A stretch of 64,000 nucleotides of DNA from a virus. Under the pieces are notes generated by a model that saw nothing but the letters and a program-made list of their open reading frames with translations, searched no databases and had not been told where the DNA came from. The stretch's first letter is position 1. Every line of letters begins with the position of its first letter. A program made the translations under genes and the position numbers. Shown here piece after piece: positions 7,392 through 45,495 of this stretch. The stretch spans positions 1-64,000 of the IMG/VR virus record IMGVR_UViG_3300034418_011473; one strand, 5' to 3'.

Positions 7392-8381
7392 ATGGCAAAC
7401 AGAGATTTGTTAGCAGACGCTATTGCTGATGCAAAAGCAGTCAAAGAAGTCGCTATCGCTAATGCGAAAGCCGCTTTAGAAGAAGCTTTCACACCTCATC
7501 TTAAGGACATGCTTGCTCAAAAAATCAATGAAATGGAAGATATGGACGAAGAGTTAGATCTTACAGAAGTTGATAAAGACAAGATGGATGAAGAGAAGGA
7601 GATGGATGAAGGTTATGGTAAGGAATCCATGGATGAAATGGAAGACATGGATGAAGAACTCGATTTAGATGAAATTCTAGCCGAGTTAGAACTCGAAGAG
7701 GGTGAAGAAATCGACGAAGTCGAGGAAATGGATGAAGCTAAGGACGAAATGGACGAAGCTGAAGACATGGACGAAGCTGAAGAAGAAATCAACCTCGAAG
7801 ATATGAGTGAAGAAGAGTTAAAAGACATGATCGAAGATGTTATCGAAGACATGGTTGCTTCTGGTGAACTCGAAGCTGGTGGAGACCCCGTTGAAATGGT
7901 AGATGATGAAGAGGAAGAAGAAGAAGGAGGAGAAGAAATGGAAATGGATGTCGAAGCAAGTGAAGAAGAAGTTGAATTAGAAGAAGAAAAAGTTGATGAA
8001 GAAAAAGAAAAGATGGAAGAGGAATTAGCAGAAGCTAAAGCTGCTATTAGACAATTACGTTCTGATCTTAATGAAGTTAACTTACTTAACTCTAAATTAC
8101 TCTACACTAACAAGATTTTCAGAGGTAAAAACCTCACAGAAAATCAGAAAATTAAAGTTTTGAAGGCTTTTGATAAGGCCGAAACAGTAAAAGAAGCTAA
8201 ATCTATCTTTGAAACTCTTAATGAAAACTTAGTTGCTAAGTCTACTAAGTCTAACATTAGAGAATCATTTGGTATGGCTTCTAAGCCTGCGGGCGTTGCT
8301 CCAAAGCGTAATTTGAATGAAGGTATTGTTCAAGAAGATGCTATGGTAGCACGCTTTAAAAAATTAGCAGGTATTAATTAA
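7392..8381 (+). CDS. gp22: Prohead scaffolding core protein (T4 gp22-like)
   Basis: The major internal scaffold of the prohead, removed by gp21. 329 residues against 269 in T4. The N-terminus (residues 1-45) is an Ala-rich amphipathic helix, DAIADAKAVKEVAIANAKAALEEAF, typical of gp22 proteins. Residues about 45-215 are an extreme acidic low-complexity tract built of Glu, Asp and Met with repeated MDE units. Residues 215-329 return to an ordinary helical sequence ending VARFKKLAGI, the usual gp22 tail. It lies directly between protease and capsid genes. The reverse strand is open across the acidic tract only as a shadow. Confidence 0.92.
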   Translation: MANRDLLADAIADAKAVKEVAIANAKAALEEAFTPHLKDMLAQKINEMEDMDEELDLTEVDKDKMDEEKEMDEGYGKESMDEMEDMDEELDLDEILAELELEEGEEIDEVEEMDEAKDEMDEAEDMDEAEEEINLEDMSEEELKDMIEDVIEDMVASGELEAGGDPVEMVDDEEEEEEGGEEMEMDVEASEEEVELEEEKVDEEKEKMEEELAEAKAAIRQLRSDLNEVNLLNSKLLYTNKIFRGKNLTENQKIKVLKAFDKAETVKEAKSIFETLNENLVAKSTKSNIRESFGMASKPAGVAPKRNLNEGIVQEDAMVARFKKLAGIN

Positions 8382-8406: not shown

Positions 8407-10038
8407 ATGTCAAACTTAAATTCTCTTTTAGAGAGCGCTAACCAGTGGAAGTCAGTACAATCTGACGCTGCTAAGTTAGCCAATAAGTGGTCAAGAACAG
8501 GTTTGTTGGAAGGTCTTTCTTCTGAGATGGACAAGAACAACATGTCTTTGATCCTTGAAAACCAAGCGAAACAACTCGTAGTTGAGACTTCTCAAACTGG
8601 TGGTGGAATCGCTTCTACTGGTAATTTCCAAACTGGTACTGGTGAACAGTGGGCTGGTATTGCTTTACCCCTCGTAAGAAAGGTATTTGGTCAAATTGCA
8701 GCGAAAGATTTCGTTAGCGTTCAACCAATGAGCTTACCTTCAGGTCTCGTTTTCTTCCTTGATTTCCAGTATGGTACTGAAAAATTAGGTGGAAAATTCA
8801 CTGCAGGTGATGATGTATTCGGTGCAGGTTCTATGTACGGTGTTACTGATACTACTTCTGCTCCAACCGATGGTTTATATGGTGCTGGTAAGTGGACTTA
8901 CTCTACAAACGTTACCCAATCTGGTGTTACTCCAAGCGCAATCGCTTCAGGATCTTGGGTTGAAGTAGGATACGATGCTGCTTTATCATCTTCTGTTGCG
9001 GGTCAACCAACTACTGCAACTTTGAAAAAACTCACTATTGCTGCTTCTTCATTTAACAACCCAGATTTGGCAGGTGTTAGAGGCTTCTCAGTTTCTGGTT
9101 CAAATGTAACTTCAAACGTTGCTGCTTATAACGTTGTTGATGGTACTAACGTAGTATTGTTTGTTCAAGGTACAGCTGGTGTTGACCCTTCAGGATTAGT
9201 TGTTACTTACGTACAACAACCAACTGATCAATACAGAGGTGACTTCGAAGATGGTAATACGGCATTAAACGGTGAAAACAACCCAATCGACATCCCAGAA
9301 ATCAACATCAAGATGAAGTCTGAAGCAATCGTTGCTAAGACTAAAAAGCTCAAAGCTGTATGGACTCCTGAGTTCGCACAAGATTTGAATGCTTACCACA
9401 GCTTGGATGCTGAGGCTGAGTTGACTTCAATCATGAGTGAGTACATCGCTCTTGAGATTGACTTGGAAATCTTGGGTATGTTGGTTGAAAATGCCTTGAC
9501 TACTGAATACTGGTCAGCTAGAAACAACGAACAATTTGATGCTAATGGTGCAGTAGATAACGGTACTTTCTACAACACTCAAGGTCAGTGGTTCCAAACC
9601 CTCGGTACTAAAATCAACAAGGTATCTAACAAGATCCACCAGTTGACTTTAAGAGGAGGTGCTAACTTCATGGTATGCTCACCAACAATCGGTACTATCT
9701 TGGAATCAATCCCAGGATTTGCTGCTGCTGATGGTGCTGATGCTGAAACTATGAACTATGCATTCGGCATCCAGAAAGTTGGTAACTTGAATGCTAAGTA
9801 TGAAGTTTACAAGAACCCATACATGACTGAAAACACTATTTTGTTAGGCTTCAGAGGTTCACAATTCTTGGAAACAGGTGCTACTTTCGCTCCTTACATT
9901 CCATTGATCATGACTCCTCTCGTATACGATCCAACGACCTTCACTCCAAGAAAAGGTCTCTTGACTCGTTACGCTAAGAAGATGTTGAGACCTGAATACT
10001 ACGCTAAGATTTACGTAGCAGGTTTGAACACTATCTAA
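8407..10038 (+). CDS. gp23: Major capsid protein (T4 gp23-like)
   Basis: HK97-fold capsomer protein, 543 residues (T4 gp23 521). The block VQPMSLPSGLVFFLDFQYG at residues 108-126 aligns with the T4 VQPM segment. The C-terminal part (AQDLNAYHSLDAEAELTSIMSEYIALEIDLEIL, then MTPLVYDPTTFTPRKGLLTRYAKKMLRPEYYAKI) is the strongly conserved core. The region about 140-275 is Gly/Ser/Thr-rich and probably the surface insertion domain. T4 gp23 is trimmed at residue 65; Glu60 in LVVE or Glu51 in LILE are plausible equivalents here. Codon use is richer in C-ending codons than its neighbours, as expected for high expression. It is followed by a strong terminator. Confidence 0.97.
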   Translation: MSNLNSLLESANQWKSVQSDAAKLANKWSRTGLLEGLSSEMDKNNMSLILENQAKQLVVETSQTGGGIASTGNFQTGTGEQWAGIALPLVRKVFGQIAAKDFVSVQPMSLPSGLVFFLDFQYGTEKLGGKFTAGDDVFGAGSMYGVTDTTSAPTDGLYGAGKWTYSTNVTQSGVTPSAIASGSWVEVGYDAALSSSVAGQPTTATLKKLTIAASSFNNPDLAGVRGFSVSGSNVTSNVAAYNVVDGTNVVLFVQGTAGVDPSGLVVTYVQQPTDQYRGDFEDGNTALNGENNPIDIPEINIKMKSEAIVAKTKKLKAVWTPEFAQDLNAYHSLDAEAELTSIMSEYIALEIDLEILGMLVENALTTEYWSARNNEQFDANGAVDNGTFYNTQGQWFQTLGTKINKVSNKIHQLTLRGGANFMVCSPTIGTILESIPGFAAADGADAETMNYAFGIQKVGNLNAKYEVYKNPYMTENTILLGFRGSQFLETGATFAPYIPLIMTPLVYDPTTFTPRKGLLTRYAKKMLRPEYYAKIYVAGLNTI

Positions 10039-10143: not shown

Positions 10144-11058
10144 ATGAAAGAGACACCATCTCAGTTGCCTATTCCGGCATTCGTTATGAATTTTCCCTTC
10201 ACTCTAGACACAAAAGTTCCAAATAATATTTGGATGCAAGAGTTAGAAGAAGAAGCACTTAAAATAAATAAAGGAGTTGCTTATCGTCAATTTTTAGATC
10301 TATATCAATTTGTAGCTGGTAACGGATTAGTTTGTAATTTACCTTCTAAAGGAGATTACCAAGATTTAGTTTATGTAGCTAATTTAGGTATTTACCTTCC
10401 TCATATTAAGGACTCAAATAACATCATATTATCCAACTTTACTTCAGAACCACGCCAAGGTGAAGAAGAAGTAGGTAAGCCATTTTTTGAATTAATGGGT
10501 TATAATGTTCATATGTGTCCTTTTAAGTGGGAAGGAGAAGCCGACCTAAAATACCTTTACGATAATGTTTATATAGGAGGATATGGAATCCGTTCAGATA
10601 TTAAAGCATATGAATGGATGGAAGAAAACTTTGATATGAAAATTATTAAAGTTGAAATGGTTGATGATTATTTATACCATTTAGATTGTTCTATTTTCCC
10701 GTTGACTAAAGACAAAACATTAATTTGCACGGAACTCTTCAACGAAGATGAATTAGCGCAATTATCACAATATACTGAAGTAATAGACGTAGATGTTGAG
10801 GACGCTCTCAATGGGATAACCAACTCAGTTCGTTTAGGTAATACTATGTTGTGCGCTTCTAACATTTCTGAGATGACTAGAGCAGATGAAAATTATGAAG
10901 CCGAAAAACATAAAATAGAAAGCCTAGAAAAAATATGCTTTAACGAAGGACTTGAACCTGTATTCTTTAACTTATCAGAATATATGAAATCAGGTGCTAT
11001 GTTAAGTTGTATGATGATGCATTTGAACTATGTTGATCAAACTAAATCTCTTCTCTAA
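10144..11058 (+). CDS. Pentein-fold guanidino-modifying enzyme (amidinotransferase/DDAH-like)
   Basis: 304 residues, about the length of dimethylarginine dimethylaminohydrolases and bacterial amidinotransferase-family proteins. Family landmarks are in order: KWEGEADLKYLYDN at residues 128-141 (the EGGD-type substrate-binding block), VYIGGYGIRS at 142-151 (the G-x-R-T block), YHLDCSIFPL at 178-187 with catalytic His179, and a C-terminal nucleophile candidate Cys289 in SGAMLSCM. Enzymes of this family act on arginine or methylarginine through a covalent Cys-amidino intermediate. The substrate cannot be told from sequence. The stop codon overlaps the start of the decarboxylase gene (TAATG), and the pair sits in a late structural operon. 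It is unlike any T4 gene. Confidence 0.85.
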   Translation: MKETPSQLPIPAFVMNFPFTLDTKVPNNIWMQELEEEALKINKGVAYRQFLDLYQFVAGNGLVCNLPSKGDYQDLVYVANLGIYLPHIKDSNNIILSNFTSEPRQGEEEVGKPFFELMGYNVHMCPFKWEGEADLKYLYDNVYIGGYGIRSDIKAYEWMEENFDMKIIKVEMVDDYLYHLDCSIFPLTKDKTLICTELFNEDELAQLSQYTEVIDVDVEDALNGITNSVRLGNTMLCASNISEMTRADENYEAEKHKIESLEKICFNEGLEPVFFNLSEYMKSGAMLSCMMMHLNYVDQTKSLL

Positions 11059-11807
11059 TGGCACAATATCTTGAAGATTGGTTAGACGGAGAAGTAGCAG
11101 AACTCTCAAAATTAGAAGTAGGTGAATTATCTAATACCTTCTTTTTTAGAGACCCAATGCGTCCCAACTATATAGATTACAAACATTTTTACTCCCCAGC
11201 TGATGGTACAATTTTATACCAAAAAGTTGTACAAAATGCTGACGAACCTATAGTAGAAATAAAAGGTATGAATTATACCATCCAAGATGTACTTGGAGAT
11301 AAAACATACAATAAACCATCATTAGTGATTGGCATATTTATGTCATTTTATGATGTTCATATAAATAGAATACCATATGCTGGTATATTACAATATAAAG
11401 GTTTAGATCCTATAGAATCCACTAACAAACCTATGTTAGCTATAGAAAAGGATATTTTAAATGCAGCTATTAACCCTAATAATTTAGAATATCTCAAGTA
11501 TAACGAAAGAATGTGGAATAAAATTTATTCCCCTCAGTTAGATTACACTTATTATTTAATACAAATTGCAGATGAAGACGTAAACGTCATAGCCCCTTTC
11601 ATTAATGATCAGAATTCCCCTGTATCACAAAATGAACGTTTCTCACTTATAAGATGGGGTTCGCAAGTTGATTTAGTTCTTCCACTCGATGAAAGATACG
11701 ATTTTGACCTTGTCTTAGAAGATGAAATGCATGTGAACGCAGGATTAGACAAACTAGTTAAAATTAATTTTAGAAATGACCCATTTCAATACCACTCCCG
11801 AAGCTGA
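11058..11807 (+). CDS. psd: Phosphatidylserine decarboxylase-like pyruvoyl enzyme
   Basis: 249 residues. Known family members self-cleave at a Gly-Ser bond, the Ser becoming a pyruvoyl group, and convert phosphatidylserine to phosphatidylethanolamine at the membrane. All three signature blocks are present: YSPADGTI at residues 45-52 (catalytic Asp), FMSFYDVHINRIPYAG at 94-109 (catalytic His in the VHxNRxP motif), and ERFSLIRWGSQVDLVLP at 193-209, which holds the Gly201-Ser202 cleavage site. No membrane segment is evident, similar to short bacterial/archaeal-type enzymes. It starts within the stop of the pentein gene and overlaps the PhoH gene by 32 nt. Residues 115-190 are more divergent than the rest. 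Confidence 0.88.
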   Translation: MAQYLEDWLDGEVAELSKLEVGELSNTFFFRDPMRPNYIDYKHFYSPADGTILYQKVVQNADEPIVEIKGMNYTIQDVLGDKTYNKPSLVIGIFMSFYDVHINRIPYAGILQYKGLDPIESTNKPMLAIEKDILNAAINPNNLEYLKYNERMWNKIYSPQLDYTYYLIQIADEDVNVIAPFINDQNSPVSQNERFSLIRWGSQVDLVLPLDERYDFDLVLEDEMHVNAGLDKLVKINFRNDPFQYHSRS

Positions 11808-12474
11808 AGAAATCTTTAGAGGGAAAAAAATAGTGAAGAATCCAATAAAATTTAAAGTCCAACTTAACGACGAACAAAAAGAAGCAAAACAATTAATATT
11901 AGATAATACAATTACTATGTTAGCTGGACAAGCAGGTTCTGGTAAAACTTTATTAGCATGTCAAGTAGCTTTAGATGGTCTTATTAGAAGAGTATACCAA
12001 AAAGTAATAATTACTCGCCCTACTGTATCAAAAGAAGATATAGGATTTCTCCCAGGTGATTTAAGAGAAAAAATGGACCCTTGGGTGCAACCAATTTATC
12101 AAAATTTCTTTACTTTATATGATAAAGCTAAAGTTGAAAAATTTATAAAAGATGGTTTAATAGAAATTGTACCTGTATCATTTATGAGGGGTAGAACATT
12201 TTTAGATTCGTGTGTTATTGTAGACGAAGCACAAAACGTAACTCATGAACAAATGGAAATGATTGTAACCCGTTTAGGTTTACGTTCCAAAATGATGATA
12301 TGTGGAGACCAACACCAAACAGATCTAAAGAAAAAATCAGATTCTGGATTTAAATTTTTATATAAAGCATCTCGTAAAATTAAAAATTTAGAAGCAATTA
12401 CACTTACTTCAAATCATCGTAATGAAATTGTAGAAGATTTAAGAAATTACTATAACGATAACCAAATTTATTAA
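11776..12474 (+). CDS. phoH: PhoH-like ATPase
   Basis: 232 residues matching the PhoH/superfamily 1-like ATPase domain common in marine phages. Walker A GQAGSGKT is at residues 51-58, the TRPTVSKEDIGFLPGDLREKM block at 80-100, Walker B VIVDEAQ at 147-153, and a GDQHQTDL sensor motif near 196. The N-terminus LNDEQKEAKQLILD resembles the Q-motif region of ribosome- or RNA-associated PhoH proteins. Role in infection is unknown; nucleotide-dependent RNA metabolism is suggested for host homologues. The start lies within the decarboxylase gene (32-nt overlap), so translation is probably coupled. Confidence 0.95.
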   Translation: MTHFNTTPEAEEIFRGKKIVKNPIKFKVQLNDEQKEAKQLILDNTITMLAGQAGSGKTLLACQVALDGLIRRVYQKVIITRPTVSKEDIGFLPGDLREKMDPWVQPIYQNFFTLYDKAKVEKFIKDGLIEIVPVSFMRGRTFLDSCVIVDEAQNVTHEQMEMIVTRLGLRSKMMICGDQHQTDLKKKSDSGFKFLYKASRKIKNLEAITLTSNHRNEIVEDLRNYYNDNQIY

Positions 12475-36822: not shown

Positions 36823-39800
36823 ATGGCACAAGAATTTTTAGCAGATAGGGATTTAGGGGCATTTTGCATACCTTATAAAGTAGCAGGCAACTCTATTATC
36901 CCCCCTACAGGCCATTTAAGCTTTTATAACAAATTAGACGTTCGTTATGTAACAAGAGTCGACATTCATAAAAACGACTTTAATAACAACAATATATTAA
37001 GGTATTTAACGGGAAGTAATAAAGGAAATCTAACGATTTCATCCAAAAATTTTCCAACTTCATACGCAGTTTTTTCTTATACAGAAATAACTTCTAATTC
37101 AAATTATGTAACCTTTACTTTAGATACAGGTGCTGTAGCCTCATCTGCAAATTTGCCTTTTACAACAGGAGAAGAAGTTTGTATTAAGTTAGATTATAAT
37201 GATGGTGAGGGGGGTACTGGGGGAGTTGCTGGCACTAACGGCACCTCGGGTACTTCTGGGATAGGAGGAGTAACTACGGGAGGAGATGACATTGAAGTAA
37301 CTGGAGCAGGCACCGAAAGTGATCCTTATGTAATTAATTATACTGGTAGTTCCTCATCTGGCACTTCAGGCACTTCTGGCACTTCTGGCACTTCTGGCAC
37401 TTCGGGTACTTCAGGCACTTCAGGCACTTCAGGCACTTCAGGTACTAGTGGTTCATCAGGCACTTCAGGTTCATCAGGTACTTCGGGTTCTTCAGGCACA
37501 AGTGGTTCAAGTGGCACTTCAGGTTCTTCGGGTACCAGTGGCACTTCAGGTACTAGTGGTTCTTCAGGTACTTCAGGTATAGATGGTTCTTCAGGTACTA
37601 GTGGCTCTTCAGGCACTTCAGGTATAGATGGTTCTTCAGGTACTAGTGGTACTACAGGCACTTCAGGCACTTCAGGCACTTCAGGTGAAACTGGTCCTAC
37701 AGGTCCTTTAGGTCCTGAAGGTTCATCTGGTACTAGTGGTTCATCAGGTATTTCTGGCACTTCTGGCACTTCTGGTACTTCGGGTGCTGATGGAGATACT
37801 TACTCAAATTGTAGTACCCAAAATTTATCAACCCCTACCCCAGGCACCCAAATCACTATTACAATAGCAACTGGGTTAGCTTATACTCCGGGTCAAAGTG
37901 TAATTCTAGCCCAACAATCTACTCCTAGTAATTATATTGAAGGTACAGTAAACAATTATACTTCTGGAACAGGATCTATAACAATTGATGTAACTGCTGT
38001 AGGGGGTAGTTTTAGTGGACCTACAACATGGTGTATTAACCTAGCAGGTGCTACAGGACAAGCAGGATCCTCTGGTACTTCAGGTACTACGGGTACTTCA
38101 GGAACCTCAGGTATAGATGGTTCTTCAGGCACTGCGGGTACATCCGGATCATCTGGTCTTACAGGTCTAACAGGCACTTCAGGTTCATCCGGCACTTCAG
38201 GCTCATCAGGCACTTCAGGTTCATCTGGTACTAGTGGCTCTTCCGGCACTTCAGGTTCATCAGGTACTTCAGGTTCATCAGGCACTTCAGGCACTTCAGG
38301 CACTTCAGGTTCATCAGGCACTTCAGGTATAGATGGCTCTTCAGGTACTTCGGGTGAAGATGGCTCTTCAGGTACTAGTGGCTCTTCAGGTACTAACGGT
38401 TCTTCAGGTACTAGTGGTTTTTCGGGTACTTCAGGTACTAACGGTTCTTCAGGTACTAGTGGTACTACAGGTACTTCAGGCACTTCAGGTGAAACTGGTC
38501 CTACAGGTCCTTTAGGTCCTGAAGGTTCATCTGGTACTAGTGGTACTTCAGGTACCTCAGGAGGTATAGGTCCTATAGGTCCCGAAGGTTCCTCAGGTAC
38601 TTCAGGTTCTTCTGGTACTTCAGGTTCATCAGGTGTTTCAGGTTCATCAGGTACTTCAGGCGTAGATGGTTCATCAGGCACTTCAGGTGAAACTGGTCCT
38701 ATAGGTCCTATAGGCCCTATAGGTCCTACAGGTCCTTCAGGTGATAATGGTTCATCAGGTACTTCAGGTTCATCAGGTACTTCAGGTTCATCAGGCACGT
38801 CAGGTATTTCAGGTTCTTCTGGTACTTCAGGCATAGACGGTTCTTCAGGCACTTCAGGTGGTACTGGTCCTATAGGACCTATAGGTCCTGAAGGTTCTTC
38901 AGGTACTAGTGGCTCTTCAGGTACTAGTGGTTCATCAGGTCTTACAGGTCTAACAGGTACTTCTGGTTCATCAGGTACTTCTGGTTCATCAGGTACTTCA
39001 GGTTCTTCAGGTACTTCAGGTACTTCAGGTTCATCAGGTTCTTCAGGCACTTCAGGATCTTCAGGCCTTTCAGGTTTAACAGGCACTTCAGGATCTTCTG
39101 GCACTTCGGGTTCATCTGGTACTTCAGGCTCATCAGGTACCTCAGGTTCTTCAGGTACTTCAGGTTCATCTGGTACTAGTGGTTCATCTGGTACTTCAGG
39201 ATCTTCTGGCACTTCGGGTTCATCTGGTACTTCAGGTTCATCAGGTACTAGTGGTTCTTCAGGTACTAGTGGTTCTTCAGGTACTAGTGGTTCATCTGGT
39301 ACTTCAGGCTTTTCAGGTACTAGTGGTTCTTCAGGTACTAGTGGTTCTTCAGGTACTAGTGGTTCATCTGGTACTTCAGGCTCATCAGGTACTAGTGGTT
39401 CTTCAGGTACTAGTGGTTCTTCAGGTACTAGTGGTTCATCTGGTACTTCAGGTTCATCAGGTACTAGTGGTTCTTCAGGTACTAGTGGTTCTTCAGGTAC
39501 TAGTGGTTCATCTGGCACTTCAGGCTCATCAGGTACTAGTGGTTCTTCAGGTACTAGTGGTTCTTCAGGTACTAGTGGTTCATCTGGTACTTCAGGCTCT
39601 TCAGGTACTAGTGGTTCTTCAGGTACTAGTGGTTCTTCAGGCACTAGTGGTTCATCTGGTACTTCAGGCTCATCAGGTACTAGTGGCTCCTCAGGCACTT
39701 CAGGTTCTTCTGGTACTTCTGGTTCATCAGGTACTTCTGGTTCATCAGGCACTTCAGGTTCTTCTGGTACTAGTGGCTCCTCAGGCACTTCAGGTACTTC

Positions 39801-42800
39801 AGGTGAGACAGGTCCTTCAGGCTCCCCAGGTGAAGAAGGTTCATCGGGTACTTCAGGTTCATCAGGTCTTTCAGGTTTAACAGGTACTAGTGGCTCTTCA
39901 GGTACTTCAGGTTCATCAGGTACTTCAGGATCATCAGGTACTTCAGGTACTTCAGGTACTTCAGGTACTTCAGGTGCAGATGGTTCTTCAGGCACTTCAG
40001 GAGCAAGTGGAGATATCTATGCTAATTGTACTCCACAAACTATTACTTCCCCAGCAACGGGTACTTTATTTCTTACTATAGGTACTGGCTTAGCTTATAC
40101 TGCAGGTCAAAGTGTAATATTATCTATTAGTGCTACCCAATATATAGAAGGAATAATATCTTTTTATAATTCAAATAGTGGAAATGTAGCTATAACTGTT
40201 ACATCATCTAATGGTACTTTTGGAGGTTCAAATCCATGGTGTATTAACTTAGCAGGTGCTACAGGTGCTTCTGGATCTTCAGGTACTAGTGGTACTTCAG
40301 GTTCGTCAGGCACTTCTGGCATAGATGGTTCTTCGGGTACATCAGGTTCTTCAGGCACTTCAGGTACTTCAGGTACTTCAGGCACCTCAGGTACTTCAGG
40401 TGAGACAGGTCCTTCAGGCCCCCCAGGTGAAGAAGGTTCATCGGGTACTTCAGGTTCATCAGGTCTTTCAGGTTTAACAGGTACTAGTGGCTCTTCAGGT
40501 ACTTCAGGTTCATCAGGTACTAGTGGTTCATCTGGTACTTCGGGCTCATCAGGCACTAGTGGTTCTTCAGGTACCAGTGGTTCATCAGGTACTTCAGGAT
40601 CTTCAGGTACTAGTGGTTCATCAGGTCTTACAGGCTTGACAGGTACATCAGGTTCATCTGGTACTTCAGGTTCATCAGGTACTAGTGGTTCATCAGGTAC
40701 TTCAGGATTATCAGGTTCCTCAGGCACTTCAGGATCATCTGGCACTTCAGGTTCATCAGGTCTTACAGGTTTAACGGGTACTTCAGGTTCATCTGGTACT
40801 TCAGGTACTTCTGGTGCCGAATATTATAGATGTGTTCAATCTAATACTCTTCCTTCTCCTCCTACTATAGGACAAACTTACCAACAATTCATTGGAACTA
40901 GTTTAGCGTGGTCAACGGGAATGTATGTAGTACTAGAAGCTAATAATGGAGCTAGTATTATAATAGGACAAGTAGTAACGTATAGTTCTGTTACAGGATT
41001 CATAGAATTTGAAGTTCTTTCTTATCAAGGAACTTGGAGTAATATTACTCATTGGTGCTACAATATATCAGGTGCTCCTGGAGAAGATGGATCATCCGGT
41101 ACTTCAGGCTCATCAGGTACTTCAGGTTCATCGGGCACTTCAGGTTCATCAGGTACTTCAGGTACTTCAGGTGATACAGGCCCTACAGGTCTTCCAGGTT
41201 TAGATGGCTCTTCAGGTACTAGTGGTTCATCAGGTACTTCAGGCTCTTCAGGTTCTTCAGGATCTTCAGGTACTTCAGGCTCTTCAGGTACTTCTGGGGT
41301 ATATTCTTATTGTGGGTTTACTGGAATTGGTGTCCCACCACCTCCATCTCAATTTTCTATAACTATAGGAACTTATTTATCGTTTACTGCTGGTCAAAGT
41401 GTAATTATATATCAACAAAATAATGCTACCAAGTATATTTTAGGAACGGTAAATAGCTATACTCCAAGCACTGGAGTTATGGTGGTTGATTATATATCCC
41501 ATAATGGTAATTGGAGTGCGGGTCAAACTTGGTGTATCAATTTATCGGGTCAACCCGGGGAAGATGGTTCATCAGGCACCTCAGGTTCATCAGGCACTTC
41601 AGGTTCTTCAGGCACTTCAGGTTCATCAGGTACTAGTGGTTCTTCAGGCACTTCAGGTATAGATGGTTCTTCAGGTACTTCAGGATCTTCAGGTACTAGT
41701 GGCTCATCAGGTACTTCAGGTTCTTCAGGCACTTCAGGATCTTCAGGTACTTCAGGATCATCAGGTACTTCAGGTTCTTCAGGTACTTCAGGTTCATCAG
41801 GTACCTCAGGTTCTTCTGGTACTTCTGGTTCATCAGGTACTTCTGGTTCATCAGGCACTTCAGGTTCTTCAGGTACCAGTGGTTCATCCGGTCTTACAGG
41901 TTTAACAGGTACTTCAGGTTCTTCAGGTACTTCAGGATCATCAGGTGAATCCGGTTCATCAGGTACTTCGGGATCATCAGGTACTAGTGGTATTTCAGGA
42001 TCATCAGGCACTTCAGGTTCATCAGGCACTTCAGGTTCATCAGGCACCTCGGGTTCTTCAGGTCTTACAGGTTTAACGGGTACTAGCGGTTCTTCAGGTA
42101 CTAGTGGTTCTTCAGGCACTTCAGGTTCATCTGGTACTAGTGGAAGCCCAGGTGAACCCGGTTTAGATGGTTCTTCAGGTACTAGTGGTTCTTCAGGTAC
42201 TTCAGGTTCATCAGGTACTTCAGGATCATCAGGTACTTCAGGTACTTCAGGTTCATCAGGCACCTCGGGTTCTTCAGGTCTTACAGGTTTAACAGGTACT
42301 AGCGGCTCTTCAGGTACTAGCGGTTCTTCAGGCACTTCAGGTTCATCTGGTACTAGTGGTTCTTCAGGTACTTCAGGTTCATCAGGCACTTCAGGTTCAT
42401 CAGGTACCTCGGGTTCTTCAGGTCTTACAGGTTTAACGGGTACTAGCGGTTCTTCAGGTACTAGTGGTTCTTCAGGCACTTCAGGTTCATCTGGTACTTC
42501 AGGATCATCAGGAACTAGTGGTTCTTCAGGCACCTCAGGTTCATCAGGCACTTCAGGTTCTTCAGGCACTTCAGGATCATCAGGCACTTCAGGCTCATCA
42601 GGCACTTCAGGTTCATCCGGTACTAGTGGTTCATCAGGTACTTCAGGCTCTTCAGGTACTTCAGGATCATCAGGCACTTCAGGTATAGATGGTGACATTT
42701 ATGCTAATTGTACTGACCAAACTATTGCTTCTTCCCCAACAACCATTTCTATTCAAATAGGAGCAGGTTTAGCATATACAGCTGGACAAAATGTTATATT

Positions 42801-45495
42801 TGCTATTGATGCTAATAATTTTATAGAAGGAACTGTAAATAGTTATGATCCCAATAATGGGAATATAACTATAAATGTTACTAGTTTTACAGGGAGTTGG
42901 AGTGGTACAAATGAATGGTGTATTAACTTAGCAGGCGCCCCAGGTGCATCAGGTTCATCAGGTACTTCAGGTACTAGTGGCTCATCAGGTACTTCAGGAT
43001 CATCAGGTACTTCAGGTTCTTCAGGTACTTCAGGTATAGATGGTTCTTCAGGCACTTCAGGTTCATCAGGCACTTCAGGTTCATCCGGTACTAGTGGTTC
43101 ATCTGGTACTTCAGGATCTTCTGGCACTTCGGGTTCATCTGGTACTTCAGGTTCATCAGGTACTTCGGGTTCTTCAGGTACTTCAGGTATAGACGGCTCT
43201 TCAGGCACCTCAGGTTCTTCAGGTACTTCAGGATCTTCAGGTACTAGTGGTTCATCAGGTACTTCAGGTATAGATGGCTCATCAGGCACTTCAGGGTCTT
43301 CAGGCACTTCAGGTTCATCTGGTACTAGTGGTATTTCAGGTTCTTCAGGTACTAGTGGCTCATCAGGCACTTCAGGTTCTTCAGGCACTTCAGGATCTTC
43401 AGGCACTTCAGGATCATCAGGTACTTCAGGATCTTCAGGTACTTCAGGTTCATCAGGCACTTCGGGATCATCAGGCACCTCAGGATCATCAGGTACTTCA
43501 GGTTCATCAGGTACTTCAGGATCATCAGGTACTTCAGGTACTTCAGGTTCATCAGGTACCTCGGGTTCTTCAGGTCTTACAGGTTTAACAGGCACTAGCG
43601 GTTCCTCAGGTACTTCAGGTATAGATGGTTCTTCAGGCACTTCAGGATCATCAGGCACTTCAGGTTCATCAGGCACTTCAGGTTCATCAGGTACCTCGGG
43701 TTCTTCAGGTCTTACAGGTTTAACGGGTACTAGCGGTTCTTCAGGTACTAGTGGTTCTTCAGGCACTTCAGGTTCATCAGGTACTAGTGGTTCTTCAGGC
43801 ACTTCAGGTTCATCAGGTACTAGTGGTTCTTCAGGCACTTCAGGTATAGATGGTTCTTCAGGCACTTCAGGTACTTCTGGTTCTTCAGGCACTTCAGGTA
43901 TAGATGGTTCTTCAGGTACTAGCGGTTCTTCAGGTACTAGTGGTTCTTCAGGCACTTCAGGTTCATCAGGTACTAGTGGTTCTTCAGGCACTTCAGGTAT
44001 AGATGGTTCTTCAGGTACTTCAGGATCTTCAGGTACTTCTGGTTCTTCAGGTACTTCAGGTATAGATGGCTCATCAGGCACTTCAGGGTCTTCAGGCACC
44101 TCAGGTTCATCTGGCACTAGTGGTATTTCAGGTTCTTCAGGTACTAGTGGCTCATCAGGCACTTCAGGTTCTTCAGGCACTTCAGGATCTTCAGGTACTT
44201 CAGGATCATCAGGTACTTCAGGTTCTTCAGGTACTTCAGGTATAGATGGCTCATCAGGCACTTCAGGGTCTTCAGGCACCTCAGGTTCATCTGGTACTAG
44301 TGGTATTTCAGGTTCTTCAGGTACTAGTGGCTCATCAGGCACTTCAGGTATAGATGGCTCATCAGGCACTTCAGGGTCTTCAGGCACCTCAGGTTCATCT
44401 GGTACTAGTGGTACTTCTGGTTCTTCAGGCACTAGCGGTTCTTCAGGCACTTCAGGTTCATCAGGTCTTTCAGGTACACCAAGTACTAGTGGTTCATCTG
44501 GTACTTCAGGTTCATCAGGTACTAATGGTTCTTCAGGTACTTCAGGTTCATCAGGTACTTCGGGTACAAACGGTTCTTCAGGAACTTCAGGCTCATCAGG
44601 TCTTTCAGGTACACCTAGCACTAGTGGCTCGTCAGGTACTAGTGGTTTATCAGGTACTAATGGCACCTCAGGTACTTCAGGTGTTTCCATCACAGGACCT
44701 ACAGGTCCTCAAGGTATTAATGGTATTAGAGGAGGGGTTGAATATAAATCAGGATCAGGTCCAGGAAAGGTTGCATGGAGTAGTACAATAAATGCCCTCA
44801 CTATATCACGTTATGATGATCAGGGTAATGATGTTTATGATTGGATTAATAGCTGGGATGATGTTAATAATGCACAAAATAAAGGTCAGGTTACAATATA
44901 TTCCGATGATGGTAATGAACTTCTTATAGGAACAATTAATACTTTAGTTTTTATTCCAAACCAATTTTTAATTACATTAGAATATCCTCTTGTTGACCAA
45001 TATTCTCCTACTACTAATGAAACAGTTTTAGTTTCATTTTCTCCTAGAGGAGCAACAGGTCCCGGATTTATTGAGACATGGTCGGGTGCTCAAACTGTAT
45101 TAGCAAATGATTCGGATACTTTTAACGTAGGTGTTAACTTAGGAACAAATGATGTAGTAGAATTTGATGGAAGAATAATCCTTAAAGGAAATAATGGAAT
45201 TTCTCCATTAGAATCAGTAGGCATTACTATAAAATATACCGGAACACTCATAGCCCTTCCTGGTGGACAACATTATCTTTCAGATTTAACAATTTTGGAT
45301 ACTAGTGGAACTATTACTACTAATACTGCAGGTGTTATTTCTACCTCAGATGTAAATTTGTATAAAGTATGGTTATCATATATCGATTCACTTTCTACTC
45401 TTCCAAACGTTTTAACTCTTGAAGTTAATAATGAATTTGCATATAGTTTACAATATAAATATTTTACAACAATACGCTATTTTAATACTTTATAA
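36823..45495 (+). CDS. Giant collagen-like tail fiber protein (2890 residues)
   Basis: Residues 1-175 form a globular, probably baseplate-attaching N-terminus. From about 176 to 2637 the chain is a Gly-X-Y repeat, mostly GTS-GSS, interrupted in phase by GLTGLT, GID, GIS and collagen-like [10 protein letters not shown] or GPIGPIGP blocks. The phase breaks only rarely, for example at two GTP-STS sites near the end. Five globular inserts of about 85 residues share Y-x-x-C at the start and W-C-x-N near the end. Residues about 2638-2890 are a beta-rich globular C-terminus without Gly-X-Y, likely trimerising or receptor-binding. About 2000 residues of triple helix would reach several hundred nanometres; this is an estimate. 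No S74 cleavage motif is seen. Confidence 0.9.
37795..38070 (+). repeat. Two-cysteine fiber domain, copy 1
   Basis: About residues 325-415. YSNC near the start, [10 protein letters not shown] in the middle, WCINLAG at the end. Confidence 0.85.
40009..40262 (+). repeat. Two-cysteine fiber domain, copy 2
   Basis: About residues 1063-1147. YANC near the start, [10 protein letters not shown] in the middle, WCINLAG at the end. Confidence 0.85.
40816..41080 (+). repeat. Two-cysteine fiber domain, copy 3
   Basis: About residues 1332-1419. The most divergent copy: YYRC start, [10 protein letters not shown] middle, WCYNISG end. Confidence 0.82.
41299..41560 (+). repeat. Two-cysteine fiber domain, copy 4
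   Basis: About residues 1493-1579. YSYC start, [10 protein letters not shown] middle, WCINLSG end. Confidence 0.83.
42691..42945 (+). repeat. Two-cysteine fiber domain, copy 5
   Basis: About residues 1957-2041. YANC start, [10 protein letters not shown] middle, WCINLAG end; closest to copy 2. Confidence 0.85.

Follow-up and report, generated by a model that had tools for sequence, protein, structure and literature searches.

A phosphatidylserine decarboxylase-fold gene of a phage is paired with an arginine-dihydrolase-like gene, and the pair may form an arginine-to-putrescine module

Why would a phage carry a homologue of phosphatidylserine decarboxylase (PSD), the pyruvoyl enzyme that makes phosphatidylethanolamine (PE)? 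The question is raised by an open reading frame (ORF) at 11058..11807 (plus strand) in a 64,000-nucleotide stretch of viral DNA (positions 1 to 64,000 of IMG/VR record IMGVR_UViG_3300034418_011473; the whole stretch is called the window hereafter). An earlier note on this DNA had described the ORF as a PSD homologue with an intact self-cleavage site, and had suggested that it either remodels host membrane lipids or lends its fold to the virion. We find that the gene is one half of a conserved gene pair, common to many bacteria and other phages, of which the other half encodes an arginine-dihydrolase-like enzyme. With slightly better than even confidence, we propose that the two enzymes would form an arginine-to-putrescine module in which the decarboxylase acts second.

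The ORF is complete, begins with ATG and encodes 249 amino acids. The motifs described previously are all present: SPADG at residues 46-50, DVHINRIP at residues 99-106 and IRWGSQVDLVLP with Gly201-Ser202, together with the signatures IADEDVNVI and GSQ. The PF02666 profile matches residues 27-229 with an E value of 6.2e-24 and a score of 85 bits (cut-off 22), which is beyond chance, and the ORF also matches phrog_12670, a family without known function (E 5e-43). The self-cleavage residues of E. coli PSD are D90/D142-H144-S254, with the site at G253-S254 (PMC7952604), and by alignment they correspond to D49/D99-H101-S202 of the phage protein. The Gly201-Ser202 codons (11658..11663, plus strand) are thus the predicted self-cleavage site, at which the Ser would be converted into the pyruvoyl group. 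D49, D99, H101, G201, S202 and Q203 are invariant in all 60 distinct viral homologues, and the median ratio of nonsynonymous to synonymous substitution rates (dN/dS) is about 0.08 in 31 pairs, indicating strong purifying selection. These results support the assignment of the ORF to the self-cleaving pyruvoyl proenzymes of the PSD superfamily, with an intact site at which cleavage is expected to occur.

The earlier note overlooked the adjoining upstream gene at 10144..11058 (plus strand), which encodes a 304-residue arginine-dihydrolase-like enzyme of the guanidino-modifying superfamily. Its stop codon overlaps the start of the decarboxylase gene by one base, forming TAATG at 11056..11060 (plus strand), an arrangement that suggests translational coupling. 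The product has no Pfam match; however, the only solved structures matched by its family profile are the arginine dihydrolases ArgZ and AgrE (E 3e-27), two further structure matches (E 0.18 and 0.36) being dismissed as chance, and NCBIfam Arg_dihydro matches it with E 6e-23. AgrE converts arginine to proline via ornithine (PMC8262935), whereas the phage protein stands alone without an ornithine cyclodeaminase domain. N80, R104, E130, R150, H179, D181 and C289, all aligned with ArgZ and AgrE, are conserved in the viral set and in cellular homologues, and the catalytic Cys-His-Asp/Glu and the substrate-binding Asn and Arg residues align to 6lrf, from the ArgZ/AgrE relatives. The dN/dS of this gene is about 0.12. 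The functional roles of these residues are those that we presume from related enzymes; in particular, we take R104 and R150 to hold the substrate carboxylate, as in DDAH structures. Asn71 of ArgZ is reportedly a determinant of dihydrolase activity, and the aligned Asn is present in the partner.

The two genes are almost never found apart. Searching IMG/VR with the decarboxylase as the query, we found the dihydrolase gene directly upstream in 78 of 80 loci, and with the dihydrolase as the query the decarboxylase was present in 78 of 80; all four loci without a partner are cut at contig ends. The one-base TAATG overlap occurs in 74 of the 80 records with both genes (78 viral loci and two copies of the window itself). 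The decarboxylase is present in 45 of 50,697 GenBank phages, each of which has the dihydrolase as well. The genes adjoin in 6 Bacteroides phages and lie tens of kb apart in 39 Campylobacter phages (about 42 kb in phage NCTC12673), so that the pairing in the latter is not mere linkage, although these 39 phages are close kin.

It is also evident that the pair exists as an operon in bacteria. A genome scan returned 30 loci, one of which (L085) was set aside for its phage gene order. The remaining 29 span Verrucomicrobiota, Actinomycetota, Latescibacterota, Eisenbacteria, Campylobacterota and Pseudomonadota. The decarboxylase is followed by a directly downstream dihydrolase in 27 of them (45-53% identity), the reverse of the phage order; the two exceptions are L088, without a dihydrolase within 8 kb, and L114, which is cut. 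A MATE transporter gene adjoins the pair in 21 bacterial loci, mostly as the very next gene, and in none of the 80 viral loci. Moreover, a second PSD is found in 17 of 21 bacterial genomes carrying the pair, scoring 137-211 bits in comparison with 77-97 bits for the paired copy. The presence of this separate and stronger canonical PSD indicates that the paired copy is a paralogue rather than the housekeeping enzyme. Besides their paired copy and a true PSD, three Sulfurimonas-type genomes (G005, G006 and G018) have one more PF02666 match, a weak one (37-49 bits). The locus set aside above, on a Flavobacteriales metagenome-assembled genome (MAG) contig (NZWA01000018.1), has a product with 77% identity to the window protein; it is probably phage DNA that was binned together with the genome of its host, a hint that the host may belong to the Flavobacteriales. 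For a Campylobacter phage homologue (NC_015464.1, 76619-77386; locus L083), GenBank notes a resemblance to AF210249_12, which we take to be the record of the Streptomyces verticillus bleomycin gene cluster and hence a further actinobacterial homologue.

Does the phage protein nevertheless act on lipids, as a working PSD whose PE alters the membrane of the infected cell? PF02666 membership and the conserved catalytic residues are in line with such activity, and many Campylobacter phage homologues are so annotated in GenBank. However, the decarboxylase misses all the NCBIfam PSD cut-offs (at best 71 bits against 183). E. coli PSD is held at the membrane through N-terminal helices (PMC7952604), whereas the window protein has only 46, mostly hydrophilic, residues before PADG, and its homologues in Bacteroides phage DAC19 and in a Campylobacter phage have 68 and 47. 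The top 15-residue hydropathy of the N-terminus does not exceed 0.93 in 22 family members, compared with 1.7-2.0 in the actinobacterial paralogues and 0.5-1.1 in the verrucomicrobial ones, in which the N-terminus is longer (about 115-125 residues). Judged from sequence, the family lacks a membrane-binding N-terminus and is soluble. The phage protein is like canonical PSDs (E. coli and the short actinobacterial forms) in fold, in the D-H-S cleavage machinery and in the Gly-Ser site, but differs in that GSQ replaces GSR or GST and an acidic IADYDVD replaces IAGLVARR. In the alignment, IAGLVARRI and GSR of the short PSDs become IADYDVDxI and GSQ in the family, a shift from basic to acidic residues that would favor a cationic substrate if this segment lines the pocket. 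In a tree that excluded the paralogue L231, whose sequence was in a wrong reading frame, the family is set apart from true PSDs weakly (89/62), and the phage branches are long. Tyr137 of E. coli PSD, tried as a phosphate-site test in a hand alignment, is Phe in the family and likewise Phe in short true PSDs, and thus does not discriminate. With the true PSD present as a separate gene in the 17 bacterial genomes mentioned above and the near-obligate pairing with an arginine enzyme, we consider PE synthesis by the phage protein quite improbable. The earlier description as a PSD homologue therefore holds for the superfamily and the intact cleavage residues, whereas the PE-making role and the membrane remodeling are not supported.

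What, then, could the substrate be? In an AlphaFold2 model of the decarboxylase (pLDDT 80), plain Foldseek gave no significant match, but re-alignment with VIA-align recovered E. coli PSD (7cnx, Z 10.8 over 169 residues), the L-tryptophan decarboxylase PsiD (Z 9.4) and the arginine decarboxylase of A. oryzae with bound arginine (Z 9.0 over 174 residues, 13% identity). A profile-sequence comparison also matched 7cnw (E 5e-9). Because E. coli PSD scores as high as or above the other two, the fold does not decide specificity. PsiD and the A. oryzae enzyme nonetheless show that PSD-fold enzymes for free amino acids exist, arginine included. PsiD (8x4q, 8zia) acts on an aromatic substrate in the fungal psilocybin pathway, unlike the enzyme proposed here. 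The A. oryzae enzyme (PDB 9jf5) is a pyruvoyl-dependent decarboxylase (PMC12283126) of the same fold whose substrate is a basic amino acid in free form; it is fungal and larger, and for the phage enzyme such a substrate is presumed. The phage gene differs further in its setting, since we know of no dihydrolase partner for the A. oryzae enzyme.

The arginine-to-putrescine module that we favor would work as follows. The upstream enzyme, like ArgZ and AgrE, would convert L-arginine into L-ornithine, CO2 and 2 NH3; the PSD-fold protein would cleave itself between Gly201 and Ser202 to generate the pyruvoyl group; and the cleaved protein would decarboxylate ornithine, a basic amino acid in free form, yielding putrescine. 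Such a route would require neither pyridoxal phosphate (PLP) nor the bacterial agmatine route. Putrescine is a counter-ion of packaged phage DNA, and a rise in putrescine during infection could serve to neutralize this DNA or to supply the polyamine synthesis of the host. Both enzymes would have come to the phages from a bacterial operon, with the MATE exporter left behind, and the lack of an exporter in the phage loci fits this proposal, as the product would stay in the cell. Support for the module comes from homology, the intact catalytic residues, the near-obligate pairing, the coexistence with a true PSD and the lost membrane anchor.

The same pair could also work in another order or by other chemistry: the PSD-fold protein would be an arginine decarboxylase yielding agmatine, which the partner hydrolyzes, or the partner would be a deiminase whose citrulline is decarboxylated to N-carbamoylputrescine. 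Arginine is indeed the substrate of the A. oryzae enzyme, and phage DAC19 also carries a protein of the agmatine-deiminase family. R104 and R150 of the partner, however, in the roles presumed for them, and likewise the Asn at the position of ArgZ Asn71, in its reported role, favor a substrate that bears a carboxylate and full dihydrolysis; together these residues would place the dihydrolase first, and we regard the alternative order or chemistry as unlikely, though the most serious of the competing explanations. The DAC19 protein (MT074139.1, 106338-107390; 3839-4891 of locus L247) matches PAD_porph with E 1e-24, has a GGCFNCITN motif and is encoded close to the portal gene, a long way from the pair; it is possibly a further arginine or agmatine enzyme.

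Several observations weigh against putrescine synthesis, or against the evidence for it. The dihydrolase scores 81 bits, far under the NCBIfam Arg_dihydro cut-off of 450, which places it in a distinct subfamily, so that our claim is of an ArgZ-like enzyme and not of ArgZ. The facing of D172 and D174 of the decarboxylase toward the active site is presumed. The phage records searched contain neither spermidine synthase nor SpeD, and the literature searched gave no biochemical fact on any member of the family. In the Sulfurimonas-type and Sedimenticola genomes that carry the operon, SpeA, agmatine deiminase and NspC are present already, and putrescine synthesis by the operon would be redundant there. 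The Verrucomicrobiales genomes with the operon, which are often incomplete MAGs, lack SpeA and NspC and mostly lack recognized polyamine end enzymes, so that a need for putrescine in them is not established. The bacterial polyamine gene content is therefore mixed, and it does not decide the product. The MATE neighbor may also mean that some other amine is exported. It is conceivable on this ground that the product of the pair is another small amine, for instance a metabolite for secretion or a precursor in the hypermodification of phage DNA, and some phages do attach putrescine or decarboxylated amino acids to their DNA bases. We think this improbable, because no third biosynthetic gene is conserved in the bacterial loci and no base-modification gene neighbors the pair in common to the three phage groups in the stretches seen.

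The surroundings of the pair bear on the remaining suggestion, a role of the fold in the virion. In the window, the pair lies between the gene for the major head protein (8407..10038, plus strand; phrog_138, E 6e-66) and that for a PhoH-like ATPase (11776..12474, plus strand; PF02562, E 2e-61), which overlaps the end of the decarboxylase gene by 32 bases and lies outside the module in other loci. The position between major head protein and PhoH could be read as a sign that the protein is a structural subunit. However, a survey of neighboring genes, as the earlier note had envisaged, shows the decarboxylase gene in three different settings in three phage groups (major head protein and PhoH; dUTPase, IMPDH and helicase; GroES and UvsW), and bacteria keep the gene in an operon. 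Given these settings and the invariant catalytic residues, recruitment as a structural protein is very improbable and the virion role is left unsupported.

Two other parts of the window deserve mention. A 329-residue ORF of extreme Glu/Asp richness at 7392-8381, before the major head protein gene, probably encodes a prohead core or scaffold protein. The 2890-residue ORF at 36823-45495 lies in a stretch with a GC content of 0.42-0.46, compared with about 0.33 elsewhere, and an inverted AT skew, and long antisense ORFs cross it; it is perhaps a repetitive or recently acquired fiber gene.

Phage polyamine genes are of a kind already known, of which the PSD-fold and dihydrolase pair appears to be a variant. 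Li et al. (2023; PMC9992855) dealt with phage pyruvoyl ornithine and arginine decarboxylases derived from SpeD and with arginase, of which their screen found no phage ortholog. Such enzymes likewise allow a virus to direct arginine or ornithine to putrescine, but they are not homologous to the pair described here, and the text of that paper names neither PSD nor arginine dihydrolase. The pair's route is not mentioned in the paper on SpeD neofunctionalization (PMC10407285), and a literature search combining phage, PSD and amidinotransferase returned only an ocean survey of auxiliary metabolic genes, which touches on them in its reference list. The papers searched gave no description of the gene pair, an absence that is no proof of novelty.

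Many phage proteins annotated as phosphatidylserine decarboxylase, and their bacterial homologues, are probably not lipid enzymes. The chances seem about even that a widespread and apparently undescribed bacterial module, consisting of a PSD-fold ornithine or arginine decarboxylase, a dihydrolase and a MATE transporter, represents one more pyruvoyl-dependent way of turning arginine into a diamine, and that distant phage groups have taken its enzymes and dropped the exporter, so that the diamine accumulates in the infected cell. If so, a path that leads from arginine to putrescine in two steps and without PLP would be added to those known, the PSD fold would have a branch in bacteria and viruses with a free basic amino acid as substrate, and the pair would provide a clear case of phages acquiring a biosynthetic operon without its exporter.
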